DNA of 64,000 nucleotides from Oegoconia quadripuncta (lineage: Eukaryota > Arthropoda > Insecta > Lepidoptera > Autostichidae): NCBI GenBank assembly GCA_949316235.1, contig OX438741.1, forward strand, positions 17,857,124-17,921,123, read 5' to 3'. The notes under the pieces are model-generated. The model did not search any database and was not told the DNA's origin. It saw only the letters and a program-made list of their open reading frames with translations. The position numbers were made by a program, and so were the translations under genes. Each line of letters begins with the position of its first letter. Position 1 is the stretch's first letter. Positions 2,889 through 59,575 of this stretch are shown in pieces.

Positions 2889-2925
2889 AATATAATTATT
2901 TGGTAGCAGCACCGTCGAATATCAT

Positions 2926-3716: not shown

Positions 3717-3930
3717 CTAATATTGTAAATGCGAAAGTTTGGATGTTTGTTTATTTGTTTGTTGCTCAATCACGGCGGAACAGATGAACGGATGTGGGTG
3801 AAATTTGGTGTATAGGTAGAATATACCCTGGATTATGACATAGGATACGTTTTATCCCGATAACAAATTAAATATATTGGAGATAAAACTATTCCACGTA
3901 GGCGAAGCCGCATGTCATCAAAATCCATAA
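3717..3930 (+). repeat. Interspersed repeat family R (gcgaaagtttggatgtttg type)
   Basis: Begins actaatattgtaaatgcgaaag and continues through cacgg..gaacggatg..gaaatttggtgtatag to gcgaagccgc. Related copies are at 49600-49805 and 48848-49010 (plus strand), and at 5881-6124, 6250-6445, 26045-26575, 28960-29545 and 32565-32722 (minus strand). The class is unassigned. It is a common lepidopteran repeat style. Confidence 0.7.
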
Positions 3931-4013
3931 ATAGCCGTGTCTTGTATATGATCGGTCATTTTATTTGCTGCTGTTGAACGGAGAGGATTAAAAGAAGTGT
4001 ACGGTCTAAGTCT

Positions 4014-4245
4014 ACGACCGATTGGTGTAGTGGATAGTGACCCTGTCAGTGAAATAGACGGTTGCGGGTTTGAATCCCGCGAAGGGTAAATGTTTGTATG
4101 ATGAAAACCAACATTTATTCCGGAGTCATGGATGTTTATTTTATAGAAATATTTATATATATTTATCCGTTATCTAGTATCCATAGTACAGCTTAGTTTG
4201 GGTATAGACGATTGGTATATCTGAAAAATAATATATATATATCTG
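4014..4245 (+). mobile_element. tRNA-derived SINE family S1
   Basis: The head acgaccgattggtgtagtgg holds the A box and ggttgcgggtttgaatcccg the B box of a pol III promoter. The body is gatgaaaacc..tggatgtttat..ttatctagtatccatag and the 3' end is AT-rich. Other copies: 8717, 14782, 33941, 34676, 39128, 44412 and 46093. Confidence 0.9.
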
Positions 4246-4561
4246 TCCCTGTCCCGCTGTACATTCACACTTATGTACGCGATATACATATTAGATATAC
4301 CTACCATATATACTCATGTATGAGGCATCAGATACATATTTCTGTACCATGAACCGATCGTACGGAAATTTGCTCAGTCCGACCAGCTGCCTCGGAACCC
4401 AGCGCTGGCAATCGTTATCTACGTGACCTACTCAAATTATTCATAAGCTACGTATCTACGAAAGGTTACTACTGATAATTATGTAAATAGATTTCTTTGA
4501 AATATGCCCCAGATAGAGTAAAGTTATTAACCTGGAGGCACGGAATATTGGCGTATTATTA

Positions 4562-5024
4562 TACAGGGTGTCCAGGAAATAATGGTCCAACCTATAACTA
4601 TCGATAGCCCACACCATGACCTCCCTAATCACCAATTTTAGCTTTAGTAAAAATATCATGGGTTTCGAGATATTCTACGTTTTTTTATTTTTGGAAATTT
4701 TACCACCTGTGATAGGTTTTTTCATACCATTTCTGCAAATGACGTCATTTATTGATGCAGTTTTTTTTCATATTCACAGAGTATAGTTAGGCTACCACAC
4801 ACAACAGTAAAAAATTGACGAACTAGCAAAAAAGATTTATTACAAGAAGGATAAACCCAAAAAAGGCAATGAAACTTATAAAAACCCATTTTCTACTAGT
4901 TGCGGTGTAAAAAAATCTCGAAACCCATGATATTTTTACTAAAGCTAAAATTGGTGATTAGGGAGGTCATGGTGTGGGCTATCGATAGTTATAGGTTGGA
5001 CCATTATTTCCTGGACACCCTGTA
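4562..5024. mobile_element. MITE with ~110-bp TIRs, TA target duplication
   Basis: The left terminus tacagggtgtccaggaaata and the right terminus tatttcctggacaccctgta are mirror images, and the inverted match extends ~110 bp into the element (through ctatcgatagcccacaccat). Flanking TA dinucleotides (4560-4561, 5025-5026) fit a Tc1/mariner-type target duplication. The interior (4680-4910) is non-coding and AT-rich. 463 bp in total. Confidence 0.9.
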
Positions 5025-5084
5025 TATCTTTGAGGAAGATTAGGACCCGAAATTTTATCGTAATCGATACCTTATAAGTATACC

Positions 5085-5440
5085 GGTGAGTTTTTTTACC
5101 GTAAGAAAAAAAAATAAGGCATATTAGGTAAATGAAATTGAAGTTATTGGCACAGGTAGTTTAATTTTTTTCAGAAATGCACGCGCCGTCCGTAGTCTAT
5201 ATGCGACAGGCGGAATTTGTAGGGTTCCTATAATCCGAAATTAATTTGGAATTCATGGAATTCTTTATTTAATTCATATAATGGTGTAATTATGTGGAAC
5301 AGGCTACAAACGCAACCGTCAAATGACACCGTTAACGCTTTATTCAAATATAGTTTAAAAAAAAAATAAATAAACTACCTATGCCATGCCAATACCTTCT
5401 ATTTCACTTAACTAATATGCCCTATTTTTTTTAAATAAAA
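5085..5440. repeat. Interspersed repeat family P fragments
   Basis: Two facing fragments (about 5085-5180 plus strand and 5290-5440 minus strand) share blocks such as gcatattaggtaa, ggtagttta and caaatgacac with 7440-7795, 23180-23300 and 60297-60535. The family appears to end with accgtaaggaaaaaa and a facing ttttttccatacggt. Its class is unassigned. Confidence 0.5.
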
Positions 5441-5509
5441 CATAGGAACGTACATAATTAAAAGAAATAAATAAAACTCAACTACTATTTACAAATAAAA
5501 AACTTGACC

Positions 5510-5712
5510 CAGATCCCTCGAAAACGGGAGCGTTCCCAGAAGGCTGGCAGAGTTACCCCGCTGTATGGCGAGGCTAATCCTTTGCGCGAAATACAGGCCA
5601 GCCTTCCGATCATAGGGCGCATTGATCAAGCGCTCAGAAATACAGGCCAGCCTTCCGATCATAGGACGCATTGACCAAGCGCTCAGAAATACAGGCCAGC
5701 CTTCCGATCATC
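5510..5712. repeat. 49-bp tandem repeat, ~2.5 units
   Basis: The unit beginning aaatacaggccagccttccg starts at 5589, 5638 and (truncated) 5687. The preceding 5510-5588 is related to 22840-22945 and 55028-55084, which share the ggcg/ttgcctcgttgaat-type block, so the tandem array arose inside an older dispersed repeat. Confidence 0.85.
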
Positions 5713-5880
5713 ATCATCCTATTTTTTTCCATACGGTTAAAAAACTCATTCGGTATGAAATGTCCCATACTATAGCAAATTATCCTGTATTAGCAAGCAC
5801 ACGATCACATACATTCTGATGATCTCTACGTCCCTCCACTCGACTCATTCGCATTCTTTCTGTAATTGTATTATACTAGT

Positions 5881-6124
5881 TGTTACCCGCGAATTCGTCC
5901 GCGTAGAATTCTTTCTACTACCAAATGCGTCACTCTACGACTCAAAAGCAATCCCACTAATAATACATATCCTACAGAACAGTTTTCCGGGATAAAAAGT
6001 AGCCTATATGCTAATCCAAGTCCTGATCTGTCTACCAACCATATTTCATCTAAATCTGTCCAACCGTTTAGGCGTGAGAAGGCATGCATACATATACACA
6101 TACACAAACTTTCGCATTTATAAG
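5881..6124 (-). repeat. Repeat family R, inverted copy
   Basis: Carries the family landmarks in minus orientation: cgcg..ttcgtccgcg, ccgggataaaaagtagccta, accaaccatatttcatctaa and cacaaactttcgcatttata. Confidence 0.65.
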
Positions 6125-6249
6125 TTGGGATTGCGATTAGTTGGGATGAGATGTAACATAAGCCCGAATCATCATCTTCAATATTACCGTCATCATCATC
6201 AGCATTACGAAACAAACTCGCTAAGTGATCCCACAACCATATGACTCGC

Positions 6250-6445
6250 TCTGACTCAAAAGCAATCCCACTAATAATACCTATCCTACAGGAACCAGTC
6301 ACTTTTCCGGGATAAATGTTTCCTATATGTTAATCCGGGTCTTAATATGTCTACCAACAAAATTTCAATCAAATCTGTCCCGCCGTTTAGGCATGAAGAG
6401 GTAACAAACTTACATACATACACACACACAAACTTTATGATATTA
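6250..6445 (-). repeat. Repeat family R, second inverted copy
   Basis: Same landmarks as 5881-6124 (ccgggataaatgtttcctat, ctaccaacaaaatttcaatc, acacacacaaacttt). The two copies share ctcaaaagcaatcccactaa and form a diverged tandem pair. Confidence 0.65.
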
Positions 6446-6507
6446 TTTGGGATGGGATTTGGGATTTTTTCTTTTGCACACAATTCACTGCTAAACCCCA
6501 CTAAGTT

Positions 6508-6630
6508 TCCTATTACAATGCTCAGGTTGGCTGGAAGAGATCTCTTAAAGAGATAAGTCCACCTTTGTACGTGACCTATTGTTTGTACTCTGTTATTGTA
6601 ATATTTTGGTGCAATAAAGAATAAATAATA
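6508..6630 (+). mobile_element. LINE 3' end
   Basis: Plus-strand partner of 835-945: ggctggaagagatctcttaa, then gtgcaataaagaataaataa at the 3' end. It is 5'-truncated and non-coding. Confidence 0.6.
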
Positions 6631-6689
6631 ATAGTTGGGATGATATTCCACCTACTTAATATTTCTAATAAGCAGTCATGTATCCTTGT

Positions 6690-6840
6690 AAGAAGTCCTC
6701 CTGTTTAAAAGAGCAACCCTAGTTTCCTGCTCGTTCTCTTTGTGAATGAGCAGTAAATTTTTTAAATGTAATATTAATAGTGACGTTTTCAAGTGATAAT
6801 TTTATCCTATGAAATAAAATATTTTGATTTGATTTGATTT
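6690..6840 (+). mobile_element. LINE 3' end with (TTTGA)n tail
   Basis: Ends in attttgatttgatttgattt. The preceding block ttaatagtgacgttttcaag recurs at 15440-15508 with the same tail. The pentanucleotide tail is typical of CR1/jockey-like LINE insertions. Confidence 0.6.
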
Positions 6841-6863
6841 AAGGATGAGCGGATAACCTGCCC

Positions 6864-6899
6864 AAGGCATATCTATTATAGGCATAATAGATATGCCTT
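6864..6899. repeat. Perfect 16-bp hairpin, 4-nt loop
   Basis: The arms aaggcatatctattat and ataatagatatgcctt are separated by aggc. Confidence 0.95.
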
Positions 6900-6969
6900 T
6901 TCAGGCACCGGTTAGCCCCACCCACTGTTTATAGTTTTTACCATATGTTACACTGAAAAAAGAAATTGT

Positions 6970-7080
6970 ATAGACCCTAGAATTTCACGTACTACTGCTG
7001 GGGATATTGCCCAGAGAAAAATTATAATTTTTCCCCGACCGGGAATCGAACTCGGGGTCTTTGCTTGGCATCAGAGGAAA
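6970..7080 (-). mobile_element. tRNA-derived SINE fragment (fifth family)
   Basis: On the minus strand a B-box-like segment, gagttcgattcccggtcggg, is followed by tttttctctgggcaatatcc and agcagtagtacgtg. The A-box end is not clear. Confidence 0.55.
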
Positions 7081-7439
7081 GCTTAAAAAGAAAATTGTAT
7101 TAAATTCATATACCATCTAAACAACGTCTTCTTCCAACTCTACATAGTCAAATATTTTGTAATAATTTCAAATATAATATGTAGGTAAATGAACGTTTTT
7201 ATTTTTAATTTTTATATTATACCTACCGATTTGTATTGCCTCTTGTAAATGCTCTCAAATAATATAGTCGAGCTGGAGTTTACCAAAAATCAGTTTCAAT
7301 TATGATATTTCTAGTTTGATTAATTCAATATTCGCGCAAAATGAACCAGTCGTCTGCCGTAGTTCAATTGGATGTCCCATTGACGGGACGATGGAAAAAA
7401 TAACCATCTGATTCTTAGAGTTCCTATCATGGGAAATTT

Positions 7440-7795
7440 ATCTGGAACTCATATTTTCTCCAAGTTTTCTTTATTTATTTAATTTAATGATGTATTTATG
7501 AGGAATAGGTCAAATGACACAAATTAACGCTTTATTCTACGATAGTTATCTTCCGAGGGTTCGATGGAAGAAATCTCTTACAGAGATAAGCTCGCCTTTT
7601 GTGTATTGTAATTTCTGTCCTATGTTTGTATAGTTATATGCAATAAAGTGTTAAATAAAATAAATAAATAAATAAAATAGTTTTGAAAAAAAAAACATTT
7701 AACTACCTATGCCAATACCTTCTATATCACTTACCTAATATGCCCTATTTTTTCCATACGGTTAAAAAACTCATCCATTATATATACACCACAGT
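7440..7795 (-). repeat. Repeat family P, split by a LINE end
   Basis: The outer parts (7440-7544 and 7679-7795) match the reverse of 60297-60535, including ctacctatgccaatacctt and tttttccatacggttaaaaa. They are separated by the foreign segment 7545-7678. Confidence 0.6.
7545..7678 (+). mobile_element. LINE 3' end nested in repeat P
   Basis: Contains gaagaaatctcttacagaga and tatgcaataaagtgttaaat, with an aataaataaataaataaa tail. It sits inside repeat P, so it is the younger insertion. Confidence 0.65.
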
Positions 7796-8159
7796 ATCTC
7801 AAGTGTCAACTTAAGTTCGTCTTAAACTTGCCTTTTTTTTATTAACACGTGTCTCAGAATTTATAGACATACGCACGATCATCTTCGCGCTATGGTCAAT
7901 CGGTATTCGCTATCTTTTAATCTCCTTAATACAACAAAACCGACAATATAATACCCTCCTTCTAACTTCAATCATAGTTTGAATTAAGTTGGTTAACTTA
8001 AATCCCGTCTCAGCCTTAAAAAAATCATCTCACAAAAACCTCGCCTCGTAATTCTGTATAGATAATCAAGAGACCTTATTTTAATCTATGCCTAATCAAC
8101 AGATTAAGAAAATGGACTTACCATTTTTGTGGAGTTTATCAAATAAGCGGCTTTAGGTG

Positions 8160-8320
8160 AGAGGTGGCGGCGTGGCGGGTTCGCTAGGCAACGCACCGGG
8201 CCGGACTGTGGGCGGCGCGGGTTCGGTGCCGGATATATACCGGGAGGCACGCGCGCACGCTGTATTCTGGAGTACTGATGCGATGTTGTTTCTATGTGGT
8301 TTTAGAGGAAGGTAGTTATG
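8160..8320 (+). promoter_or_regulatory. GC-rich TATA-containing promoter candidate
   Basis: A compact GC- and CpG-rich stretch (8160-8272) in otherwise AT-rich DNA contains ggatatatac (TATA-like at 8234-8239) about 30 bp upstream of a CpG-rich patch. Downstream, an ATG at 8279 (MRCCFYVVLEE) runs to a possible donor at 8311. No further exon of a plus-strand gene was found, so this is only suggestive. Confidence 0.3.
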
Positions 8321-8446
8321 GATTTTCTATTCGATATTTTCGGTGTACTTGCTCCACTGTTGTGCCAATCAATACGTGTAAAAAATGCAAATAATTGCCA
8401 TGTCCGTGATCCTAGAGCCCTCACTGCGGAATTCAGTTATTTTGAT

Positions 8447-8716
8447 AATAAATAAATAATAAATAAAAGATCCTTAGACATACATACAGCGCCATCTAGT
8501 TCCACAATAAGCAACTATAGCCTTCTGTTGTGGATACCAGATGGTTGATATACTACATAAATACATCTTTTTTTGTAAATAAATACTTGTTATGAAAACA
8601 TCCATAACTCGGGTACAAATGTCCGTATTCATCACACAAACATATGCCCCAAGTGGGATTCGAACCCGCAATCTTTTGATATAGTGGCCAGAGTTGCTAA
8701 CCACTACACCAAACAG
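8447..8716 (-). mobile_element. tRNA-derived SINE family S2
   Basis: Read on the minus strand: head ctgtttggtgtagtggttag (A box), a B-box region ending gcgggttcgaatcccacttg, body with atggatgtttt, and a 3' portion aactagatggcgctgtatgt ending in a (TTTAT)n-like tail. Copies are also at 22449, 34950, 40822, 44986, 47012 and 62650. Confidence 0.9.
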
Positions 8717-8885
8717 AACGAATCCCGCGAGGGGTAAATGTTTGTGTGATGAATACGAACATTTATTTATGCCATGGATCTTGGAAATATTTATGTATAA
8801 CGTGCTCTAGTATCCATAGCATAGTTTGCATAGTTTAGGACTAGATGATTCGTGTAAGTGTCCGAAATATTTATAATAGTTTATA
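8717..8885 (+). mobile_element. SINE S1 lacking its A-box head
   Basis: Starts abruptly at aacgaatcccgcgaggggta (B box onward), directly abutting the head of the oppositely oriented S2 at 8716. Continues to ctagatgattcgtgtaagtg. Confidence 0.8.
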
Positions 8886-13325: not shown

Positions 13326-16300
13326 CTGGAATTGTATTATACGATTTTGAAATGATCACCAGCTTACGCAATCCCCTTGGCAAGACACGGACCGTCCTCG
13401 AGCACGGGTCGTAGCCAAATTGGGGATTGGAAGACTCGGACTTGTCCGTGCCTCGGAAATCCTAATTTCTAGGTGGTTGAATATACACATAATGTCACAT
13501 AATGGGCAGAGACCACAGACTTCCACTTGCTACGATCCTGACACACCTCTTTTGTTTGGTGGTTGAATGGGACGATTTACCGAGATTTTTCAATTGAAGC
13601 CAGTCGAAAGTCCTTTTGGACAGAGCGCTCCGAAGACGACGAAAAACGGTTCAAGTTGCCGATACAAACTCATTCTTTGAAATCAACACATAGGTACTTG
13701 ACAGCGTTTATTTTTACATGCTCAATACTCCATTTAACCACCATGTACAATTACATCTCTTCAGCAAGTTTATTCTTTACTTGGTTCTTACCCAGCGCAT
13801 GCCCCTTCTGCGAGAAGTGGAAGCAGTCGTGCGTGATGTAGGACTGATGAATGACGAGCGGCAGCGGCTGCGTGGGCGGCAGCGGCGCGTTAAACAGCCT
13901 CATGAAGGGCTGCACCACCACCGTGAAGTCTTCGCGAGTGTCATAGCGACCGCTATCCACCTGAAATAAATTTTATTAGATTCCTCAAAATGACAGGCAA
14001 GAGATTCTTTAAGGATATTAGGTACATTAAAATTCTATTGCGTGTATCAGCACCATTTTTATCATAAAATATTAGATTTTTCTAGGAATTTCGTTGGTTA
14101 TTTTTTTTATGCACAACGGGTTAGCACTTGACTTCAATCACACCTGATGTAAAGTGAAGATGAGGCCGAAGGTGGAAGCGTGCTGACCCGGAAACCCAAA
14201 TATTTGGGGAAATGGTTAACTTATCTCTGACAACTGGAACACAACAATGCTATTAACATTGCTGTTTGGCGGTAGATTTAGATAAGATGGTGGTAGCTAG
14301 CCAGGCGAACATTTAAAATGCCCTACCACCAACCAAACCGAGTACTTAAACATGTACCCCGCTGGGGATCGAACCCGCGACCTCCGAATCGGAAGCCCAA
14401 TGTTGTTTACATTGAGCCACGGAGGCGGTTGTAGATAACACCGGCAGTACCTAGTTGAAACCTTCGGAATTATCTTGCCTAAACGTCCATTGATGTTAAG
14501 CTCAAAACCAGTAAGGAGGTATACCCACCAGCATAGACTCCGCCTTCTGGTACAGTCGCGACATCCGCACCAGCTCCTCCAGCTCTCCGCCGCCGCGGTG
14601 GAAGCAAGAGCAGAACAGCGAGTGCATCATCCGGCACATGAACGGCCTCAGAACGCGGACAGACACCGATACGTCTGGAACGAAGGGTAAGATTGCCAAC
14701 TTTTTAAGTAGAAATAAAGTAAATCTGTTTCAGAGAGGATAAATAAAGAGTATTATTTATTTAAAATACCGAGGACTTTAAGACGACCGATTGGTGTAGT
14801 GGATAGTGACCCTATCAGCGAAACCAACGGTTGCGGGTACGAATCTCGCGAGGGGTAAATGTTTGTGTGATGAATACGAACATTTATTCCCGAGTCTTGG
14901 ATGTTTATATAAATATTTATGTATGTTCATCCGTTATCTAGTATCCATAGCACAAGCTTTGCTTAGTTTGGGACTAGATGATTGCTGTGAGTGTCCGAAA
15001 TATTTATTTATTTATTATTATTGTTTTGAAAATATTGCCCTTTTGCGGTAATTTGTGGTTTATGCACAATGTTATGTCATCATCAGCCAGGAAACATCGC
15101 ATGCAGGGATATAGGCCTTCCTTGTATATGAGAGAGCATGAGCCATAGTCCACCACGCTGGCCCAATGCTGGTTGGAGACTTCACATGCCTTTGAATTTT
15201 TATATCTCAGGCATGCAGGTTTCCTCACGATGTTTTCCTTCACCGTTAAAGAGCAGTCGGATAAATGCACATAAGTAATTAATTTTCTGTTATGCAATAA
15301 GGGGTATTCTATTGTATTGTATTGTATTGTAATTACATTTAAAAAACTCATTGGTACATGGCCTGTCTGGGAATCGAACCCGGATCTCCTAAATTGAGAC
15401 AGCATCTGAACCATATTCTAATTTAAATCTAATATTAATATTAATAGTGACGTTTTCAAGTGATAATTTTATCGTATGAAATAAAATATTTTGATTTGAT
15501 TTGATTTAATTCTAAGTTCATAGAGATCGGGAGCTAAAGTCAGAGTTATTGTAAATGGAGTATTTCAGATAGATGATAGATAAATCGTTTATTTGTGACT
15601 CCAGTCACACACATACCATTATTCCATAAGAAATAACATACATCCCACCAAAAACATTCTGTAAAAAACTAGCCAAGTCTCGATGGAGCTGCTTGATTAT
15701 CTCTAAAAAGTAATGAAATCTATACAAAGTCGTGCCAAGTTCCTTACTGCGATTTCTTTATTATTATAGTTAATGTTGTGTGACTTGGCCGTTGAAGGGT
15801 ACACAGGGGTACAAAACCAGGTGCTCCATGACACCATTGCACCAATCTGTCGCCAGAACCGCTATTAATGTTATTAATTATGTTATTAAGAATGTTCAAC
15901 GGCAAACTATTAGCGAATAATCTGTGTGGCGTTTACATAACATTCTTTATACGTTAGTGGCTTTATCAAGCCTACAATTGACTGGTTATTGAATCAACGT
16001 TTTCCAAGTGGCAATTTTCCATCGTCACTGCGTAGCGGTTCTGGCGACAGATTGGTGCAATGGTGTCATGGAGCACCTGGTTTTGTACCCCTGTGTACCC
16101 TTCAACGGCCAAGTCACACAACATTAACTATAATACTAAAGAAATCGCAGTAAGGAACCTTACACTTGGCACGACTTTGTATAGATTTCATTACTTTTTA
16201 GAGATAATCAAGCAGCTCCATCGAGACTTGGCTAGTTTTTTACAGAATGTTTTTGGTGGGATTTCACTTCTTTTTGTAGAAACGTGGGCATATTATATAT

Positions 16301-19300
16301 ATGCCCACGTTTCTACAAATATACTTGATACTGCAAGTTGAGTCAGTTCTACCATACACCAAGAAAGATATTGAATGGAAGAGACAAGACCCGTCTTTGG
16401 GCATACCAACTACTTGTTAGCCACTAAGTTCATCGTCGTCTTTTAATATTATCGACATTTTTTACGATAATTATTATCTTGCGAAATCAAACACAATTAA
16501 ACTCAACGACCTTTAGTATATGGACAACAAATCAGAAATACCGATAATATTTAGACTAAAACCTACTTATATCTTTAAGACTTCTTTTGTCTTAATAAAA
16601 AAAACTTAAAGAAAATATTACTCTGCCTACTCAATCTATACAAACTATAAGCAAAACGTTAACTCTTAATTATTAGACAAGTGTCAATATAATTAATTAT
16701 CAATGAACTTTCTACCAAAGGTACTACCTACCTAGTACTGAAATACAGCTAAATTAATGATATTTTTAAACGAAACGAAGTAATATCTAACTAAATAAAC
16801 TAAACTAGAATACTAGAAAAGTACTTATAAACACGAACGCGATTCGAAGTACTGCCTAACTGTAAATTAAACCTAGAAAACTAAAAGTAGGTACTAAATA
16901 ATTAACAATTAAATAAAGTATTCAATTGAAACTTCTTTTAATTCTGATAATTAAGTAATAATCAGTAATCCGTCACTAACCATATAATTCCTAACCTGTT
17001 TAAATCTTTGAATTAATATAATAACAACCTGCCAATTAACCTTAGCAAACCTCACGAAATAATCAGCGAAATCAACGAAATGCAAATAATCCCTCCTAAT
17101 CCCTAGCAAACATTTTCAAGCGCAATAGGAGAATGTCGTAAACGACTGTAACGCGGCCGGTTGCCACTTTGCCATATAAGGTTATCGGAAAAACAAAACG
17201 TAAGCGCGTTTTAAAATACAGTCAACGCCATCTAGCGACGCCACTCTTAGCTAATGCATTATATTTTGACCAAATTTTCGTTTGTTTATTTAATTTGTGT
17301 AATGTTCGAGTAGAATAAAATTAATCGTTTGACTATTTCTTCTTGTAAACTTGTAATAAGTATAAGTAAGTATAAGTATAAAAGCCAGTCTAGTCTTATC
17401 CAGAGTTTTCCTTTAATTTTATTTATATTCGTATTAAAAGCAGAAGGGGAGGCATTCGCCCAGCAGTGGGACGCTATAGGCTAGATTAAATTAGAAGATG
17501 TGTCCCACTACGCTGGATTTTTGCAATGACAGTCGATTTTTCTATGTACCAATAGTAGAAGGGGGCATTACCATATCTCTAATACAGCTGAGACCAGCTG
17601 AGGGTTCTTCATCAGATACTTCAGACCTTCGATTTTTGACATCAAATGAAGCGGCCCACCAAGTTGAATATTTTTTGTAAAGGCGGTATATGTCGATCTC
17701 TAATAGTTTGGTTGGGCTCTTGTGTTTCCTAATCAGGGTCACCAGGTACTCCAGATCTTCGATTATCCTAGTTTTTATAGTTTTCCCTTTATGTGGCCAT
17801 TGAACCATAACTCTGTACCAAATTTCAGCTCTCTGAGTTTATGGGAAGTACTAGTTCTATTTTGATGATCATGAGTGAGTGAGTGAGTGAGTGAGTGTCA
17901 TAAATGCGAAACTTTGCTTTCGCTTAACTTCGGAACTAAATGACCTACAGACTTGAAATTTTGGATTTTAAGTATGTGATTATAGCTTACTGGATGACGA
18001 AAATTTCTGCGTTCTAGTCTTATCCAGAGGTTCTAAATAGGGGCCTGAAAATGCGGCGAAATGGTTCCAGTAAAGGATGGTACGGCAGTGTTTGCTTCGC
18101 GCTCGACTTGGCGGGGGCACTGCCGTGCCCCCAGATTAGAGTATGTCTGTGCTATCTCCGTACAAATTAGCGTACTTCTAGAAAGTCTCGTAGCTCTGAA
18201 TCTGTCTCAGAAATGCCTATGGGTGTGACGGTAAACCAGCGCTGAGCGCTTATCAGCTGATGGCGGAGTGTGAATTTTATTTCGACTTAACTTTACTACA
18301 GCGTAATATGTGTATGGTGAAATGGTGTCCATGTTTCACCTTAGGCTCCACTGAAAACCAGCGTTGTAGTCTAATTTCTAGACTGCAACTTATGCTGAAT
18401 AGGAGACCTTCTTTGACACCACTTTGCGACACCGAAAATTAATTTTTAAATACTTTAAGTCTACTAGTGAAACTTTACTTAGGTACCTAGCTGCCTATTT
18501 TTTACTTTTATTTTTGTAAACTGCTATGAGATAGGAGTACTCACTCATCCTATTGAAACTGTTTTGTGTACCTACTTTTGTCTCGGTCCCAATTCCATTA
18601 TGACAATTTGCAATTCACCGTTATACATGTATAATAATATGTGTGTCGTTAAATGGGTCAAATAAACGATTCTTATTCTTATTTTTAAATGTGCAGCGCC
18701 TCTAGCGGATAGTTTGCAATAGGGACTTGTTTCGTAAACGCGAACGCGATGGTAAAGTTAAAAACGAGACAAAACCCACACTTCGCACGCTGAGCATAAA
18801 GCTGAGTTGTTTCCCTTTCGTTGCTGCGCAGCGACACTTCACATAATGTTCTGTTATTTTTATTTGTTTAACAATGTTGTATACGTGTCGAAGTGGCGAA
18901 TAAACTTTCAATCGCTGGAGAAAGTGACTAGGCACATACAGTATGGGATGCAAAGCCGAAGATCTGGCTGCGGGGCTCCTCTTGGTCGCCTATGTCGAGC
19001 AATGGTCTAGGGTCTGATAACGATGATAAAGAATAGTTCATTGCTGTTGCTAGCTTAAAAGAATCTGTAATCGATTTTCCATTGTAACAGAAAAGTCGTA
19101 AAAAGCTTATCTTTGCAGATCAGAAGACTGATTTCCGTACTTAGTTGACCGTGTCCTACGTCCCGTCTGATAAACTAGCCTAAAATACTCACTAATATTA
19201 TAAATACATGCATTACCAACATAATATTAATAACTAACTCAACCCAGTACGCTTTTCAAACGAAATACATATTAGTACATATTATATAACAAATAACCAA

Positions 19301-22300
19301 TCTGCTACCATCCCACTAATTATTTATTTACTACCAAAGTTCTGTTTTAAGCTGAACGTCACTTTCCACTTGAGGCACTGGCAGAATTATCAGTGTTTTT
19401 TTTTTTTATGCATAACGGGTTGATACTTGATCTCAATCTGATCTATCAACCTGATATTAAGCGAAGATGAGGTCGAAGGTGGAAGCGTACTGACCCGGAA
19501 ACCCCAACACATTTGGGGGACTGGCTATCTTATCTCTGACAACCGGAACACAACAATGCTATCAACATTGCTGCTTGGCGGCAGATTTAGATAAGATGGT
19601 GGTAGCCAGCCAGGCGGACATCTAAAATGCCCTACCACCAACCAAACCGAGTACCTTAAACATGTACCCCGCTGGGGATCGAACCCGCGACCTCCGAAAC
19701 GTAAACCCAATGTTGTTTACATTGAGCCACGGAGGCGGTTGTAAGCGCGTTCAGCGTTTACAGCGTTAGCGGTGCCAGCAAGCCCTTTCACTGCTACAAT
19801 TATATTGTGCATTATTCTAAGATTTCCTGAGATTCTAAGAGTCCTGTATAATAATAAGTATATTTATGGTTCTATACAATGTATTTATGGTTCTGTACAA
19901 TGTATTTATGGTTCTGTACAATGTATTTATGGTTCTGTACAATGTATTTTTGCACTGAATGAAAAGTTTCTATGTCTATGTCTAATTTCGATTGACATAG
20001 CTTGGTACAAATACATAAAATATGACATGTAATGTAATGATCGACAGAATAAGTGAATGTAGCTATATTAAATCCCTCTGGTATGCATCTAGATTATTCA
20101 TGCTTTTATCCAACACACCGAAGGTCTACTAATCTAAACTCACCTAATACTGGCACTAAATTAATAATAGTCCTGGGCAGGTGTGTGTGGAAGTAATCCA
20201 ACGCTTTGGCTAGCTTCCTGGCGTGGGCGGCGGGAGACCACGACACTGGGGACAGGCACGATGCGGAGCACAGGTCGTTGGCGCCGATGAAAACTGTGAT
20301 CATCTTCCAGTGTTGAGCGATATCGATATCTGGGGATGCTTGCATGCGGGCCACCAGGATCTGAGAAAGTGGAAGAAGATTTCATTAGGACATAAGATCA
20401 TCAAACATTAGTCATAGTCTTGTGTATACCCATTGTAGGGGCATACTCGGGGGATACCATACCTAATTGTAACGAGACGCCATGCGACTTGTTGGTTCTC
20501 TTTTTGCAATATTCTCCATGTTTGTTTCTTTTTCGGTTAAGTCATAATATTTTAAATTCAAAATTTGAACTCTGCCTGTTCTCTCTCTCCGTCTTTCTGT
20601 ATAGCTTTTTGGTTAGTCAGTTCGTAATTTGCCCTTGAAAAGATTGGACGTGTACTTTTCTGTTATTTTTGTTTAAAATATGTAATAGGTCTTTGCCGTT
20701 CTGCAGTACTGGCCGTTTCAAATCAAAATAATTTTTGTTTGGCTAAGAATTCTAATTTCAAATTAATTTTATTTTAAAAACATGAAATTCTTTTTCCAAA
20801 AGTAGTCATTTGTTTATTGATTAGTGTTACATTTTCATCGCATTTCAATCTTTTTCGTCGTCATGGATACGTTAAAAATTCAAGTAATTATGGAATATGA
20901 GTACCGTCGTGGCAGCAACGCGGCACAAGCGGCGCGCAACATCAACGACGTTTACGGTGCTAACACTACAAACCAACGCACCACCTGTTATTGGTTTGCT
21001 CGCTTCCGTGCTGGGAATTTCGACCTGAAAAATGAACCTCGCGGTCGTCCGAAGACTTTGGTCGACAATGACGAATTAAAGGCGATTGTGGAAGATGATG
21101 ATACACAATCTACTGCTCAATTAGCAGCAACTTTCGACGTTAGCGTCAAAACAATATTGGTCCATTTGCGTCAAATTGGCAAGGTAAAAAAGCTTGACAA
21201 ATGGGTGCCTCACGAACTCAATGATCGCCAGCGCGAAGTACGCGTCGAGACGTGCCTTGCACTGCTCAACAGACACACAAATGAAGGAATTTTGAACCGC
21301 ATTGTTACCTGCGATGAAAAATGGATTCTGTTTGATAACCGCAAGTGCTCAGCAAGTTGGTTGGATCATGGTTCAGCACCTAAACAATGCCCTAAACGAA
21401 AACTTACCCATATTTAGCAGTAGGTAACATCTGCAGCTCTCTATAGCGATAAGTTGAAAATTTAGAAAACGCCCCGACAACATTTATCAAATAAATTATT
21501 GTATCAAATAAAGTAATGCTAGAAATAGTTCACTTTTCTATTTTTCATTTTATCTAAATCTAAATGACAACTATACAGGGTGAAAATTAATTAGTGTCAT
21601 TCCTGTCTACTAGTGACTTTCCCCAAAACCATAGCCCAATTCGATCAAATAAATTTCGTTTACCATACAAAGTTAAATAAAGAAAATACCTCTAGTATTG
21701 AAGTACATCAATTTTCGACTGAACTCGGCTATGGATCCTTTTACCACCAACCAAACCGAGTACTTAAACATGTACCCCGCTGAGGATCGAACCCGCGACC
21801 TCCGAATCGTAAACCCAATTGTTTACATTGAGCCACGGAGACGGAGAAATAGTATTTATTAAAAAAAAAATGTATTTGTGTAGTCTTTGCAACCATCTGG
21901 TATCCATTTTGGATATAGTAAAACAGCCCTGTATGAATCTTGAGATCGCGTGCTTCATCTTCGGCCACATCGTCACTTTCCATCAGGTGAGATTATGGTC
22001 AAACGCGTATCCAGTTAATCATAAAAAAAAATTACGAAACCAACTGTTCAGGGTCATTAATTTTGTTGTGACAGACAACGCGTAATTTGTCAATTACGAT
22101 GTTTTGACATATCACAATAACACGTAACTGTATACGAATATTGTTTCTATTGTAGAATGATGTCTTGTGGTTAGTAACATGTTACTACATAAATGGCCCA
22201 ATAAGAGTCAAAGGCTACCGCGGACGAGAGAAGGCTCGTATTGCGTTGTGGTCCGACCCACCGTCTGTGGACGACCTCACGTAATTTCCATAAAAAGCCA

Positions 22301-25447: not shown

Positions 25448-28400
25448 AAAAAAACTATGTGCAGAGGTCTAATTAAAAAAAATGTGATATAAAAGCCCAG
25501 GAACGTTAAGTTTGTTTCCTTTGTATTAGCATGCATTCGAATTTTGAATATAATAGACGCATAATTTTCATTTGATTGGTAATAACTTTAAGATTTATAA
25601 ATATTTGCATTGCATGCCATTAAAAGTGACGGAAAATCAAAATCAAAAATATTTTATTCAATGTAGGATACAAAAATATCACTTATTGAAAGTCAGCATG
25701 TTATTTTTTTTTTAAACTACATCGCTTCACAAGGTGTTATGGTTAGGGAGAAGAAGCGACAAGAAACTCCGCACCGGAATAGGTGATGTAACCTTTTCAA
25801 TAGCAAATAAATCATTTTTATTTGCTATCAAAACACAGATATGCTCATTAAGACCCCTTACCCCTTAATAAATCGATCTTGAAACTGAGATCGCCTCTCA
25901 GTCGCCATACAATTTTTTTGATACTAGTTTAACTTGCAACAGATTCTTAAGCGTCAACTTGAGGTGATCTCAATCTTGAGAACGGTTTATTAATATGGAC
26001 CTTAGTGTAGTTCATACTAATGGTATACCTAATTTGTATGAATAATCGAAATTTTTTTGATCGAATTCCACTATGGTTCCTTTGAGAAAGTTGTTCATAA
26101 TCAAGAGTGGCGTGAGTTAATGGGAATTACACGAATTCAAATTCACTCTGAATACAAAATTTCATCCAAATATGTTCATCCGTTTCGCCATGATCGAGCA
26201 ACAAACAAACCGCCTCCGTGGCTCAATGTAAACAACATTGGGTTTACGATTCGGAGGGCGCGGGTTCGATCCCCAGCGGGGTACATGTTTAAGTACTCGG
26301 TTTGGTTGGTGGTAGGGCATTTTAAATGTCCGCCTGGCTAGCTACCACCATCTTATCTAAATCTGCCGCCAAGCAGCAATGTCGTGTTCCGGTTGTCAGA
26401 GATAAGATAGCCAGTCCCCCAAATGTGTTGGGGTTTCCGGGTCAGTACGCTTCCATCTTCGACCTCATCTTCACTTAACATCAGGTGTGATTGAGGTCAA
26501 GTACCAACCCGTTATGCATAAAAAAAACGTCCAAACTTTCGAATTTATAATAATAATATGTTAACTAATATTTTATTTCGGAACATTTCGATGATATAAA
26601 CAAGCATTGGTATGACCAGCTGGGCGATGTTCAATTTATCATACCTTAGCCTGTTTGAAGGCATCCTGATCAGAAGCCACAGGGAACGCCACGTTGAGCC
26701 TCGCGTTTTTGGTCAACCACTCCCCGGTGCCCGTGGAGTACCCTCGGAGGTTGGGATTGAACTCCTTGATGATATTCGGCAGAGTGAGGAAATCGCGCCA
26801 CGTGCCGTCGCCCCCTGCAATAAGTTGATGTGACTATTTTATTGGAAGAACACATTTTTATTGTTATTACGTAACATTGCGAACACAAAGTACAAATATT
26901 TTTTTTTTTAAACTATAGAAAATCGAATATGGGTTGAAGGAATGTATTGGTTGGTGGTAGGGCATTTTAAATGTCCGCCTGGCTAGCTACCACCATCTTA
27001 TCTAAATCTGCCGCCAAGCAACAATGTTAATAGCATTGTTGTGTTCCGGTTGTCAGAGATAAGATAGCTAGTCCCCCAAATGTGTTGCGGTTCCCGGTCA
27101 GTACGCTTCCACCTTCGACCTCATCTTCACTTAACATCAGGTGTGATTGAGGTCAAGTACGAACCCGTCGTGCATAAAAGAAATAAAAAAAATATGGTTG
27201 TAAATATCTATCTGAAAAGTCAAAAACAAGACGAAATAACTGTTTCAGGGCGGAATCGGAGGCCTCTGCGGTTCCTCGTACGTAACATTCTTTGAAGAAC
27301 TTGACCTGAGCTCTGCTCTGCGCTTCTATCTCAATCAATCAATCAATCAAGTACCCTTTATTGCAGAAAAATTCTACAATGCACTTCATAAATATAGCTT
27401 CAAAATAATAATAATTGTACAACCAGGCGGTCTTATTTCTACCAGACAACCTTTGGGTAGAGGAAAAAGTAGAACGGGATAAAAGCAAGTAGGTTGTGCA
27501 CCAATGACTTAAAAAAATATAAAATAATAGATAATAAACATACAATAAACGAGGTAATGCTGCCAGTCTTTTGGGTACACTTCCTTATGGTACGGACCTC
27601 GAGCACGTTTTCTACCTTTCTTAATTTTGAAAGGTAGAGAACGTGTTCTTGTCTGCTCCCGTGTTTTTCTTTTTCCCTTTTTTTTCTGTAGGTAGTTAGC
27701 TCCTTTTTTCTAAGTTATGCTCTTTATTATGTATGTTATAGTTAAATAAATTTCCTAGTGATAAACATACATTATGTTAGATATGAACATCAACTTACAT
27801 GCAATGATAGTGTAAAATATACATACATATATAGTGATAAATTATTATATATACATATACAATATATGTGACACCAAACAAAGAAAATATTGGATACTAT
27901 AATCAAGTCTCAGAACCACGAATATGGTAACAGTCAAGACGCTATCTATTCGTGATTGCTCTATATGGGGCCAGCATATTTAATTGATGTAGTTTTATAT
28001 GCAGCAATCCTCAATACAGCAAAATGTAGGTATGCTAAACGAAATCACTATGTCACAATGAATAAATAAATTCATCTAAATGAATAGTTTCACGTCCAAC
28101 AATTTTACTATAATATTATACATAAGCAGTTAGTAACACGCGAAAAAACTATTGTCCCGTATAATTAATAAGCTGGTACTCATCTCGTTAGATATTTAGG
28201 GTTCCTCACTTGTGAGGAATTCAAATTACCTACCCAGTCTTACATCGACTTTACTACAGCAACTACGTTTTTCTCAATTCAAAGAAATAAATAAAGAATA
28301 AAGTAACTCTATGTTTCTACTTTTTGGTGTAAAGTCCCTTTGTCGTCTTTTACGACATCCACGGGAATTGATTAGTTTTCAAATTATGACAAACTAAATG

Positions 28401-53546: not shown

Positions 53547-53697
53547 AAGACAGCAACTGGGTGTTTCTGGAAATTATAAATATCTAATTACTAAATGCAT
53601 AACAACATCTATTATTTCGTTGATTACACATTGATTTTAATTATACATTTTATTATTAAAATTACTTGCTTCTAATATCTTTTTTCATTTAGTTTCT

Positions 53698-56576: not shown

Positions 56577-57205
56577 ATCCCACCAAAAACATTCTGTAAA
56601 AAACTAGCCAAGTCTCGATGGAGCTGCTTGATTATCTCTAAAAAGTAATGAAATCTATACAAAGTCGTGCCAAGTGTAAGGTTCCTTACTGCGATTTCTT
56701 TATTATTATAGTTAATGTTGTGTTGACTTGGCCGTTGAAGGGTACACAGGGGTACAAAACCAGGTGCTCCATGACACCATTGCACCAATCTGTCGCCAGA
56801 ACCGCTATTAATGTTATTAATTATGTTATTAAGAATGTTCAACGGCAAACTATTAGCGAATAATCTGTGTGGCGTTTACATAACATTCTTTATACGTTAG
56901 TGGCTTTATCAAGCCTACAATTGACTGGTTATTGAATCAACGTTTTCCAAGTGGCAATTTTCCATCGTCAATGCGTAGCGGTTCTGGCGACAGATTGGTG
57001 CAATGGTGTCATGGAGCACCTGGTTTTGTACCCCTGTGTACCCTTCAACGGCCAAGTCACACAACATTAACTATAATAATAAAGAAATCGCAGTAAGGAA
57101 CCTTACACTTGGCACGACTTTGTATAGATTTCATTACTTTTTAGAGATAATCAAGCAGCTCCATCGAGACTTGGCTAGTTTTTTACAGAATGTTTTTGGT
57201 GGGAT
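56577..57205. repeat. Long inverted repeat inside copy B
   Basis: Left arm 56577-56806, right arm 56977-57205, ~229 bp each and almost perfect. The spacer holds the first half of the LANCL exon. Confidence 0.94.
56901..57033 (+). pseudogene. Captured LANCL exon fragment, copy B
   Basis: As in copy A but with Met for Leu (PSSMRSGSGDRLVQWCHGAP). The frame is intact between a possible acceptor (acgttag) and a possible donor near 57028. Part of it (from agcggttctggcgacag) is duplicated in inverse orientation in the left arm. Confidence 0.75.
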
Positions 57206-57206
57206 T

Positions 57207-57401
57207 TCACTTCTTTTTGTAGAAACGTGGGCATATTATATATATGCCCACGTTTCTACAAATATACTTGATACTGAAAGTTGAGTCAGTTCTACCATAC
57301 ACCAAGAAAGATATTGAATGGAAGAGACAAGACCCGTCTTTGGGCATACCAACTACTTGGTAGCCACTAAGTTCATCGTCGTCTTTTAATATTATTGACA
57401 T
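57207..57401 (-). CDS. OTU-type protease N-terminal fragment, copy B (open)
   Basis: A 64-codon frame: MSIILKDDDELSGYQVVGMP, KDGSCLFHSISFLVYGRTDS, then TFSIKYICRNVGIYI before it reads across the palindrome and ends PRFYKKK. The Asp-Gly-x-Cys-Leu-Phe core is the OTU catalytic segment. The His-containing C-terminal half is missing, so it is not a functional protease. OTU domains occur in some Helitron/Helentron-encoded proteins. Confidence 0.6.
   Translation of the reverse strand: MSIILKDDDELSGYQVVGMPKDGSCLFHSISFLVYGRTDSTFSIKYICRNVGIYIICPRFYKKK
57214..57260. repeat. Perfect palindrome, copy B
   Basis: Same 21-bp-arm palindrome as 16273-16319. Confidence 0.92.
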
Positions 57402-58782
57402 TTTTTACGATAATTATTATCTTGCGAAATCAAACACAATTAAACTCAACGACCTTTAGTATATGGACAACAAATCAGAAATATCGATAATATTTAGACT
57501 AAAACCTACTTATATCTTTAAGACTTCTTTTGTCTTAATAAAAAAAACTTTAAGAAAATATTACTCTGCCTACTCAATCTATACAAACTATAAGCAAAAC
57601 GTTAACTCTTAATTATTAGACAAGTGTCAATATAATTAATTATCAATGAACTTTCTACCAAAGGCACTACCTACCTAGTACTGAAATACAGCTAAATTAA
57701 TGATATTTTTAAACGAAACGAAGTAATATCTAACTAAATAAACTAAACTAGAATACTAGAGAAGTACTTGTAAACACGAACGCGATTCGAAGTACTGCCT
57801 AACTGTAAATTAAACCTAGAAAACTAAAAGTAGGTACTAAATAATTAACAATTAAATAAAGTATTCAATTGAAACTTCTTTTAATTCTGATAATTAAGTA
57901 ATAATCAGTAATCCGTCACTAACCATATAATTCCTAACCTGTTTAAATCTTTGAATTAATATAATAACAACCTGCCAATTAACCTTAACAAACCTCACGA
58001 AATAATCAGCGAAATCAACGAAATGCAAATAATCCCTCCTAATCCTTAGCAAACATTTTCAAGCGCAATAGAAGAATGTCGTAAACGACTGTAACGCGGC
58101 CGGTTGCCACTTTGCCATATAAGATTATCAGAAAAACAAAACGTAAGCGCGTTTTAAAATACAGTCAACGCCATCTAGCGACGCGTGCGGGTATCACCGC
58201 CACTCTTAGCCAATGCATTATATTTTGACCAAATTTTCGTTTGTTTATTTAATTTGTGTAATGTTCGAGTAGAATAAAATTAATCGTTTGACTATTTCTT
58301 CTTGTAAACTTGTAATAAGTATAAGTAAGTATAAGTATAAAAGCCAGTCTAGTCTTATCCAGAGTTTTCCTTTAATTTTATTTATATTCGTATTAAAAGC
58401 AGAAGGGGAGGCATTCGCCCAGCAGTGGGACGCTATAGGCTAGATTAAATTAGAAGATGTGTCCCACTACGCTGGACAGTCGATTTTTGTATGTACCAAT
58501 AGTAGAAGGGGGCATTACCATATCTCTAATACAGCTGGGACCAGCTGAGGGTTCTTCGTCAGATATAAAGTTAATCGTTCGACTATTTCTTCTTGTAAAC
58601 TTGTATGTAAGTATAAGTATAAAAGCCAGTGTAGTCTTATCCTGAGTTTTCCTTTAATTTTATTTATATGCGTATTATAAGCAGAAGGGGAAGCATGCGC
58701 CCAGCAGTGGGATGCTATAGGCTAGATTAAATTAGAAGATGTGTCCCACTACGCTGGATTTTTGCAATGACAGTCGATTTTT

Positions 58783-59004
58783 CTATGTACCAATTGAGGG
58801 TTCTTCATCAGATACTTCAGACCTTCGATTTTTGACATCAAATGAAGCGGCCCACCAAGTTGAATATTTTTTGTAAAGGCGGTATATGTCGATCTCTAAT
58901 AGTTTGGTTGGGCTCTTGTGTTTCCTAATCAGGGTCACCAGGTACTCCAGATCTTCGATTATCCTAGTTTTTATAGTTTTCCCTTTATGTGGCCATTGAA
59001 CCAT
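58783..59004 (-). CDS. Unidentified ORF in duplicated element, copy B
   Basis: Residues 1-70 are identical to 17808-17542. The C-terminus differs (SIGT) because the internal tandem duplication changes the sequence after SDEEPS. Confidence 0.3.
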   Translation of the reverse strand: MVQWPHKGKTIKTRIIEDLEYLVTLIRKHKSPTKLLEIDIYRLYKKYSTWWAASFDVKNRRSEVSDEEPSIGT

Positions 59005-59309
59005 AACTCTGTACCAAATTTCAGCTCTCTGAGTTTATGGGAAGTACTAGTTCTATTTTGATGATCATGAGTGAGTGAGTGAGTGAGTGAGTGTCATAAA
59101 TGCGAAACTTTGCTTTCGCTTAACTTCGGAACTAAATGACCTACAGACTTGAAATTTTGGATTTTAAGTATGTGATTATAGCTTACTGGATGACGAAAAT
59201 TTCTGCGTTCTAGTCTTATCCAGAGGTTCTAAAATAGGGGCCTGAAAATGCGGCGAAATGGTTCCAGTAAAGGATGGTACGGCAGTGTTTGCTTCGCGCT
59301 CGACTTGGC

Positions 59310-59329
59310 GGGGGCACTGCCGTGCCCCC
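59310..59329. repeat. Terminal GC hairpin, copy B
   Basis: gggggcac-tgcc-gtgccccc, identical to copy A. Confidence 0.9.
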
Positions 59330-59575
59330 AGATAACTCTCGTAGAGATCTCAGTACACGTGATAGGCGCTAACTGTTGAGTAAAGCGCAAGATGCGAATA
59401 TTTAAACAAGGTGAGACATTGATAGGGAACGTAACATCCGTTTATGACTAAACTACAGATTAACTAATAGGTAGTGTCAGTACACAATATTGCAAGGAAA
59501 ACACCGTGAGATGAAATTTCGAACGCTTGCAATCTACGCACTAGTCTCGGGAAGTCCATAGGTAGAGAGTTCGAG

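Follow-up and report, generated by a model that had tools for sequence, protein, structure and literature searches.

Recognition of the 3' end and capture of host genes are two unsolved aspects of Helitron biology. In the part of its description used here, Helraiser carries a 19-bp palindrome located 11 nt from its CTAG end (PMC4778049), and the portion of the FoHeli report drawn upon describes several 5' termini per element, with self-insertion modelled in either orientation (PMC5148889). In the genome of the moth Oegoconia quadripuncta, we report a family of shortened and full-length Helitron copies with an unusual, very long 3' hairpin that carries a piece of a host gene, a family for which the open papers searched gave no description.

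The window, i.e., the whole stretch of 64,000 nucleotides analysed here, holds two copies lying 41 kb apart and 97% identical, whose common ends in unrelated flanks the first-pass annotation had recognised. Both are probably non-autonomous, having lost internal sequence, and belong to a rolling-circle family of the Helitron superfamily that amplified recently and whose 3'-terminal foldback carries a captured LANCL piece. Their features are the following:

15643..18135, minus (sense) strand: copy 1 of the element, between host A at 15642 and host T at 18136
56578..59332, minus strand: copy 2 of the element, between host A at 56577 and host T at 59333
18113..18132, minus strand: 5'-terminal hairpin of copy 1, GGGGGCAC, 4 nt, GTGCCCCC; the element 5' end is TCTGGGGGC
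59310..59329, minus strand: 5'-terminal hairpin of copy 2
18081..18127, minus strand: 5'-subterminal inverted repeat ACGGCAGTG / CACTGCCGT, an alternative to the terminal hairpin (sequence and plus-strand centroid fold)
17872..17897, no strand: tetranucleotide array (TGAG)6.5
58565..58794, no strand: extra diverged unit of copy 2, 86.6% to 58274-58500
16326..16458, minus strand: RepHel ORF remnant of copy 1, ATG at 16458, first ~44 codons with OTU motif, one stop
57269..57401, minus strand: RepHel ORF remnant of copy 2
16273..16319, no strand: 47-bp palindrome at the junction of a ~6-kb internal deletion, copy 1
57216..57262, no strand: same deletion-junction palindrome, copy 2
16033..16263, minus strand: copy 1, inner foldback arm at the 3' end
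15642..15872, minus strand: copy 1, outer foldback arm at the 3' end, ending in TTTTTGGTGGGA before T
56976..57206, minus strand: inner foldback arm, copy 2
56577..56815, minus strand: outer foldback arm, copy 2
15962..16086, plus strand: LANCL exon piece of copy 1, running against the RepHel ORF, last ~54 bp within the arm
56905..57029, plus strand: LANCL exon piece, copy 2, same frame, offset 40943
15811..15857, minus strand: inverted partial second LANCL copy in the copy-1 outer arm

At both copies TCTGGGGGC reads inward and adjoins an A, as first noted. The proposed terminal hairpin does exist, as an 8-bp hairpin at the right end which, taken as a 30-mer, is equalled by 1/200 shuffles, but it is unremarkable in a 105-base context, where the three stretches folded are equalled by 16/200, 8/200 and 22/200 shuffles. 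A candidate for the asymmetric terminal inverted repeat of Helitron2, the 8-bp inverted pair GCCAAGTC, lies 29 nt from one end and 23 nt from the other and is not significant by itself, 220/3000 random 60-bp pairs reaching 8 bp. The unit at 58565-58794 is missing from copy 1, whose single unit is a mosaic of both copy-2 units. Rfam returned 0 matches over the whole window, and a 67-aa minus-strand frame at 17545-17745 gave sub-threshold matches only (BBS2 platform, E=0.22; Midasin, E=0.71) and no homologue.

A search of the insect's own 622.6 Mb genome identified at least 40 closely related loci of the copy-1 family, a strong match being obtained for 40/40 scored candidates (out of 1242 at first look), and the genome counts for the family are lower bounds. 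Among the 40, 25 match over nearly their full length at 97-100% identity, the one at 100% being copy 1 itself, and for the other 15 the match is split in two, its longer stretch reaching 96-98%. Altogether 57 sequences were examined, namely 30 loci cut out first (copy 1 included), 26 retrieved by the LANCL piece, and copy 2. The exact ATCCCACC start is found in 28/30 cut-out loci, copy 1 among them, the exceptions being L131, with a small deletion there, and L147, without the first 14 bases; 26/30 end exactly as copy 1 does, which exceeds chance agreement. Among exact motif matches within the 57 sequences, AT precedes the terminal arm in 52/52 and T follows the 5' end in 35/36. Family loci and both full-length copies described below are inserted between A and T with no target duplication seen, a pattern that is here indistinguishable from a 2-bp AT duplication. 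The 5' TC is present, as TCTGGGGGC or TCGGTGGGC adjoining A, and copies with an intact terminus end in GGGA before T, which bears out the earlier remark that a clear CTRR end is lacking. Internal deletions of other kinds occur in L158/L160/L168/L177, L167, L172 and L174, with the same kind of foldback. Many genome copies with constant ends at A/T sites, rather than two copies with variable ends, support the initial proposal that the family is Helitron-like and non-autonomous and has captured a LANCL piece.

An apparently intact, full-length relative with the ends of the deleted copies was found on two contigs of the same genome. Its single ORF of 2069 codons, with no internal stop, encodes OTU, DUF6570, Helitron_like_N and PIF1 domains; Pfam searches run on three ORF pieces gave OTU at 36.7 bits (7.3e-9), Helitron_like_N at 71.1 bits (1.8e-19) and PIF1 at 48.4 and 37.5 bits (1.1e-12). 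HxH, YxxxY and Walker A motifs are present, which we take to be marks of Rep (HUH) and of a PIF1-type helicase, the combination that characterises the Helitron superfamily. As for Helitron1, insertion between A and T and the 5' TC are found, and the 3' CTRR and short 3' palindrome are not. The OTU protease, a Helentron accessory, is present, but the three ORF pieces gave no Pfam match to a Helentron endonuclease domain at E<=0.1 and the sites are A/T, not TT, so that of the original wording "Helitron/Helentron-like" only the first half stands.

The window copies do contain an OTU-like stretch (16.3 bits alone, under the cut-off, minus strand). Rather than being captured, it opens the RepHel ORF of the element itself, in whose full-length form the OTU match exceeds the cut-off; the sense strand is therefore minus, and the orientation of the full-length ORF argues against the plus strand. 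Against the full-length relative, copy-1 positions 1-223 match at 96.5%, 350-653 at 98.7% and 685-2495 at 95%, whereas positions 224-349 are absent from both full-length copies, which are therefore not direct parents of copy 1. A SINE-like repeat provides the empty site of the full-length relative (filled AACA[TCGG...GGGA]TTGGG, empty AACATTGGG), seen in 6/6 aligned window copies of that repeat, and the second full-length copy has a different flank, again between A and T.

The foldback ends the element and is ~500-630 bp long, with arms of about 225-231 bp. Those of copy 1 measure 231/230 bp (15642-15872 and 16033-16262), are near-identical within and between copies and both contain LANCL sequence, in agreement with the first description of inverted arms partly derived from the exon. 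Two arms are present in 56/57 sequences (L175 has one, and one arm of L159 is just 56 bp), the outer arm reaches the element terminus in 28/30 cut-out loci, and the loop is inverted in L164. Folded as RNA, the foldback reaches -452 kcal/mol, whereas 20 shuffles average -146.5. In copies with an intact terminus, a 3' CTRR and a short (16-20 bp) palindrome near the 3' end are absent, and the foldback stands there instead. Exchange between arms is suggested by minority states common to the two arms of one copy, which fill 52 cells whereas 61 re-pairings average 11.3 and never exceed 20, a count that ignores kinship of copies and in which one site accounts for 21/52 cells and one 7-bp deletion in two copies for 14/52; base variants found in <=2 copies occur in both arms in 8 cases versus one arm in 48. 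Seven family loci were read through the ORF C-terminus (L189-L193, L197, L202). Matching stops inside the foldback in four of them (L189, L190, L191 and L197, with A/T only at L190), which means that a constant terminus is seen chiefly in copies that had been ranked by their similarity to copy 1; L192 has an outer-arm deletion with the terminus kept, and L193 and L202 are whole.

The LANCL exon fragment seen at first pass is a real match, its frame hitting Pfam LANC_like (E=2e-7, 30.4 bits for a cut-off of 23.2) and LanC-like protein 2 (E=8.9e-12). The captured piece is 125 bp in the window copies, inside the foldback with its ~230-bp arms, and occurs in 57/57 sequences, 26 of which were retrieved through it and thus provide no test of its presence. 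It is part of one exon, without splice site; a reading as exon plus intron was rejected because the exon of the insect's own gene continues upstream where the element match stops. Exact identity to the LANCL exon locus of the host itself (L157) extends over 18 nt at most, and the piece may derive from the gene of another species, by horizontal transfer, or from a lost paralogue.

Foldback ends were also found in loci of two sister lineages, for which the data are 3' ends only. Five loci were read to their end, with arms of 36-326 bp: one of lineage B (arms of 326 bp, 99.7%) and four of lineage C (36-214 bp). Reading of L194, L198 and L195 stopped short of an end, with no end motif in 1500 bp of L195, and L206 has neither motif. 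The terminus is similar, G(G/A)TGGGA before T in 4/5, and the interiors are unrelated, lineages A (the copy-1 family) and C having only the outer 26-28 bp in common, at 89%. The foldbacks of B and C begin directly after the ORF, at the same place as in the family, and their ORF pieces, which are pieces only and many of them decayed, are 56-67% identical to those of the family, for which the decayed member L202 scores 72%. Given these foldback ends and their similar terminus, this looks like a candidate Helitron-superfamily clade with a 3'-terminal foldback able to carry captured DNA. More tentatively, and with somewhat less than even confidence, we propose that a whole insect Helitron clade swapped the short hairpin and CTRR for a giant 3' stem-loop with a conserved base of ~26 bp and exchangeable contents, in which the loop takes foreign DNA, snap-back lengthens the arms, and the cargo was spread to many loci, perhaps between species.

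The inverted arms form the 3' terminus of the element, and the foldback would be its terminator. In this model, which is built from sequence rather than from observed transposition, the RepHel protein would mobilise deleted copies in trans, and the large stem would act as a 3' stop signal replacing the short hairpin and CTRR. Foreign DNA would enter the loop by read-through or template switching, and the arms would lengthen as the displaced strand snaps back, copying itself. Alternatively, the foldback could have arisen when a second copy inserted into the element the other way round, a self-insertion like that proposed for the multiple 5' termini of fungal FoHeli elements (PMC5148889). Two start motifs in the lineage C loci L203 and L205 agree with this precedent, but the arm duplicates the 3' tail with captured DNA, not the 5' end with its hairpin, and we regard self-insertion as rather unlikely, although it is the strongest competitor of snap-back copying. 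A separate foldback or TIR transposon, inserted at or near the Helitron 3' end and now co-travelling, might be suspected from the long inverted arms and loop, from a fold that is very stable as RNA and from the four family loci that stop inside the foldback. This is improbable, since the foldbacks of B and C start at the same place after ORFs whose matched pieces are 56-67% identical to those of the family, nothing beyond the outer 26-28 bp is common to A and C, and the outer arm ends at the element terminus in 28/30 loci.

Retention of the LANCL-bearing hairpin as a source of small RNAs silencing the host LANCL gene would suit its 230-bp arms and its predicted fold. It appears very improbable, as the 18-nt run is the longest exact match to the host exon locus, just ~54 bp of the exon piece lie inside the arms, and the foldbacks of B and C do not match the LANCL-bearing interior. 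We give equally little credit to a canonical Helitron in the plus direction, with TCCCACC as 5' end and the hairpin at 18113-18132 as 3' hairpin: despite a TC at the left end and, 3 nt in from the right end, a hairpin, the full-length ORF lies on the other strand and the last bases are CAGA, not CTRR. Segmental duplication of one locus, to which the proximity and identity of the two window copies might point, can practically be dismissed, being refuted by the spread of 40 loci over many contigs, whose ends are constant and whose flanks differ; common flanks and variable ends were not found.

Pattern searches of viral contigs returned at least 120 stretches for one 15-base pattern and 1 for another, which are taken as chance since neither copy 1 (E 1e-3) nor the window (E 1e-5) had a BLAST match in the loci retrieved; two further patterns gave 0 and 0 in viral contigs, and two patterns 0 and 0 in bacterial/archaeal contigs. 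Within the open literature, the exact terminal strings were not found, Helitron and LANCL together returned one paper, unrelated as far as its title and opening abstract lines show, and, judged likewise from titles and abstract openings, nothing matching emerged on Helitrons of Lepidoptera or with foldback, OTU or long palindrome in the parts covered of papers including PMC3789558, PMC6544945 and PMC5714489, Repbase and subscription papers being outside this scope. One genome thus offers full-length ORF-bearing copies, similar deleted copies, an empty site and 3' ends of sister lineages. With the usual 3' signals missing and captured DNA inside the terminal stem, both the terminator and the capture step become directly testable, and the structure suggests that elements of this kind would escape Helitron finders that rely on CTRR.

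The following comparisons draw on parts of each cited source. Like canonical Helitrons (Helitron1, e.g., bat Helraiser), the family has a Rep/PIF1-helicase protein, a 5' TC, A/T insertion and capture of flanking DNA on the 3' side (PMC4778049), but unlike Helraiser it has no CTRR and its 3' foldback of hundreds of bases is flush with the terminus. With the lepidopteran Hel-2 and Lep1, compared by description and not by sequence, it shares the 5' TC, a 5' inverted repeat, a subterminal inverted repeat and A/T flanks, as well as a tetranucleotide array as in Hel-2 and acquired sequence on the 3' side as in Lep1 (PMC4344730, PMC4038834), whereas both of these end in a hairpin and CTRR, with no long foldback in the portions of their descriptions considered. 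Helentrons and DINE-1 have in common with the family an OTU protease domain, subterminal inverted repeats and captured genes (PMC4067079), but the family has no endonuclease domain, inserts at A/T rather than TT and has its OTU domain encoded where the RepHel ORF itself begins. Finally, although Helitron2 and FoHeli differ by their target, and the family by a far longer 3' foldback and no convincing asymmetric terminal inverted repeat, they resemble it in their 5'-terminal hairpin, their non-CTRR 3' end and their several termini per element (PMC5148889).

Two copies of the element lie in the window, together with the other features listed here:

15643 to 18135, sense strand minus: copy 1 of the element
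56578 to 59332, sense strand minus: copy 2 of the element
26208 to 26527: SINE-like repeat of about 330 bp, with parts or the whole again at 14098, 19396, 28653, 29835, 32179, 38277, 45289 and 55085; it contains GGTTCGATCCCCAGCGGGGT, tRNA-like by eye, and has many copies
20821 to 21414: 198-codon open frame, mariner-type transposase-like by eye
53641 to 54273 and 47955 to 48386: frames like parts of a non-LTR reverse transcriptase/endonuclease, by eye
2987 to 3082 and 5588 to 5711: tandem repeats, perfect or nearly so, of 50-bp and 49-bp units

The first-pass annotation described two copies with common ends in unrelated flanks, which is borne out by aligning both copies to one another and to the window: the match spans ATCCCACC to CCCCCAGAT, beyond which the flanking sequences are unrelated. 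Copy 2 carries an additional diverged unit of about 230 bp, and the single unit present there in copy 1 is a mosaic of both copy 2 units. Substitutions amount to 17 per 1344 bp in the middle part, to 2 per 621 bp in the arms and loop of the foldback (3'-terminal inverted arms around a loop with a LANCL exon piece) and, as read from the alignment, to 0 over the last ~540 bp. This uneven divergence suggests a mosaic ancestry of the two copies rather than a single simple duplication.

In the genome of the same species, all 40 loci scored with copy 1 as query (of 1242 first-look candidates) were strong matches, 25 of them, including copy 1 itself, near full length (97-100%) and 15 in two stretches, as in copy 2. 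The last 237 bp matched at ~100% in 40 of 40 scored loci (of 1102 first-look candidates), all on contigs C1-C3, so that the true number lies above 40; copy numbers are thus lower bounds, the latter matches being counted by that segment alone. Among 30 loci cut out from the copy 1 search, 28 start exactly at A/TCCCACC, the slash marking the boundary (the exceptions being L131, with a small deletion, and L147, which begins at position 15), and 26 have the other end GCCCCCAGA/T of copy 1 (L125, L126 and L146 are off by one or two bases, and the end of L151 was not located). The anticipated presence of many copies genome-wide, at no fewer than 40 loci, therefore held, with ends that are largely constant in the 30 loci cut out. 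An exact-motif scan of 57 sequences found AT before each of 52 terminal arms, a count in which an inner arm with an altered lead-in would pass as terminal, and T following 35 of the 36 5' ends seen. Insertion at A/T sites is confirmed by these counts, and no common target duplication beyond AT was present at the 27 loci tested, six of which had chance repeats of 2-3 bases and one of which (L149) sits in a TA repeat. At L180, a copy restarts inside another at position ~904, a nested or tandem insertion with two consecutive foldbacks.

A Helitron_like_N profile search of the genome returned three matches, namely two with a 2069-codon open frame, identical to each other across 3543 bp, and a decayed Helitron, apparently of a different lineage, with the genome's best score of 155.9 bits (L152, C12:20530061). 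The locus C1:26073501-26085500 shows in order the 5' hairpin end as in the copies, reading TCGGTGGGCACGG where they have TCTGGGGGCACGG, the ORF and the foldback. Pfam identified OTU, DUF6570, Helitron_like_N, PIF1 and Pif1_2B in the full-length ORF, and no endonuclease domain. The OTU fragment noticed in the window is indeed present but is not captured, since its residues begin the element's own ORF. Among the proteins closest to the ORF middle are a Parnassius mnemosyne protein, at 95% across 32% of the query, and an unnamed 1994-aa protein at 69%; by these relatives, a lepidopteran host is likely. The C1 copy is inserted inside the SINE-like repeat, uninterrupted copies of which lie in the window: the empty site reads AACATTGGG in 6/6 aligned repeat copies and the filled one AACA[TCGG...GGGA]TTGGG. 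On C11, the second full-length copy occupies a different A/T site and shares these ends. Copy-1 positions 224-349, and hence part of the LANCL piece, are missing from the foldback on C1, and the C11 copy reads likewise at this gap.

Copy 1 is the full-length element minus ~6 kb, namely positions 2684-8767 in the 12-kb stretch, and a 47-bp palindrome sits where the deletion is joined. Other loci retain an additional 231-232 bp of the ORF region (L158, L160, L168, L177), two pieces of it (L167) or pieces of its end (L174 and L172). As at least four distinct internal deletions all occur with the LANCL foldback, this structure was, most simply, already in the ORF-bearing parent. Many short, closely similar ORF remnants, ~55% identical to residues 380-457, are found on many contigs (e.g., C8:17745151, L199); they may represent another deleted, amplified family, the single one read belonging to the sister lineage B.

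The LANCL exon fragment proved genuine, as Pfam LANC_like matches the plus frame 15941-16120 with a score over its cut-off and the same frame matches LanC-like proteins of known structure. When 116 of 812 LANC_like candidates in the genome were scored, the 41 matches comprised a gene in pieces (C11), an uninterrupted 449-codon frame (C16) and element copies. The captured piece lies within one exon, aligning with the C11 exon over 125 bp at 80.8% identity, and this comparison revealed no intron or splice site carried along. The 24 differences fall 3/3/18 at codon positions 1/2/3; of the codons affected, 14 carry silent changes and 6 non-silent ones. Because this bias is unexpected for a neutral relic taken from the C11 gene, the greater part of the divergence probably arose before capture; judging from 41 codons, the donor was thus probably either a lost paralogue or the LANCL of a different species. 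The nearest database relative, an unnamed protein of 75 aa, contains this exon too. No sign of use of the piece was seen in exact runs shared with the host exon (the longest with the genome's own LANCL exon locus being 18 nt) or in the foldbacks of the sister lineages B and C, which do not match the LANCL-bearing interior.

In four family sequences (C1 full-length, copy 1, L193, L202), the arms align over 223-230 bp at 98.7-99.6% identity and are spaced by 47-167 bp. Two arms were present in 56 of 57 sequences examined, and the LANCL piece in all 57, of which 26 were fetched via that piece. The loop has the usual order in 50/57, is inverted relative to the body in L164, and was unscored in six. 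Sequence seems to be exchanged between the arms. Of the cells with a minority state, 125 have it in one arm only and 52 in both arms of one copy, the latter number comparing with an average of 11.3 and at most 20 in 61 re-pairings among 54 copies. A single site accounts for 21 of the 52 shared cells and a single 7-bp deletion for 14. Rare base variants were shared by both arms in 8 cases and confined to one arm in 48. The 7-bp deletion affects a single arm in copy 1 (L122) and L133, and both in L164 and L178.

A search with the last 465 ORF residues yielded 91 scored matches out of 930 first-look candidates, and the 3' side was read at 16 of these loci, with extensions of 2. Seven belong to the family, or lineage A (L189-L193, L197, L202): the foldback is complete with its terminus in L193 and L202, L192 has an outer-arm deletion with the terminus kept, and L189, L190, L191 and L197 keep the ORF end, their match stopping inside the foldback, at A/T in L190 and elsewhere in the other three; in these four, either truncation or a premature 3' end may be the cause. 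In lineage B (L194, L198, L199), whose matched pieces show 66, 67 and 56% identity, GATCCCATCAAAAACA comes immediately 3' of the ORF; the single locus followed to its end, L199+L200, terminates in TTTTTGATGGGA/T, and its 326-bp arms are 99.7% identical. Lineage C (L196, L203, L204, L205; 56-62% identity) shows CCCACCAAAAACATTTCATG, arms of 36, 80, 39 and 214 bp, respectively, and ends in GGTGGGA/T, or GGGGGGA/T in L203. Lineages A and C have only the first 26-28 bp in common (89%), and lineage B matched neither at E 1e-4, the outermost bases being alike by eye. L203 and L205 have two start motifs each, as if a short foldback like that of L204 had been extended by an inverted copy. L195 (64%) has the start motif and no end within 1500 bp, and L206 (56%) neither motif.

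Most likely, the element works like a Helitron. RepHel, the Rep-helicase protein of the full-length element, would nick at A/TC and displace the strand, then stop at the element's 3' end. The study on the bat Helitron Helraiser concluded that the 3' hairpin acts as a stop signal and that read-through and new ends result when it is lost (PMC4778049); here, the large stem would take this role. The short-stem state has a 36-40 bp stem and ~190 bp interior (L196, L204), and growth to arms of 200-330 bp would occur when the displaced single strand folds back and copies itself. The main rival is that a self-insertion in opposite orientation lengthened the foldback, self-insertion having been modelled for the fungal Helitron2 elements FoHeli (PMC5148889). 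Fold-back self-copying appears the best explanation of arm lengthening, and foldback priming is a proposed origin of inverted duplications at broken yeast chromosome ends (PMC10622511). As judged from its protein, 5' end and target, the element is a member of the Helitron superfamily, so that the original Helitron/Helentron-like placement stands in its first half and, on the features examined, falls in its second: the element differs from Helentrons in endonuclease and target, and from canonical Helitrons in its 3' end.
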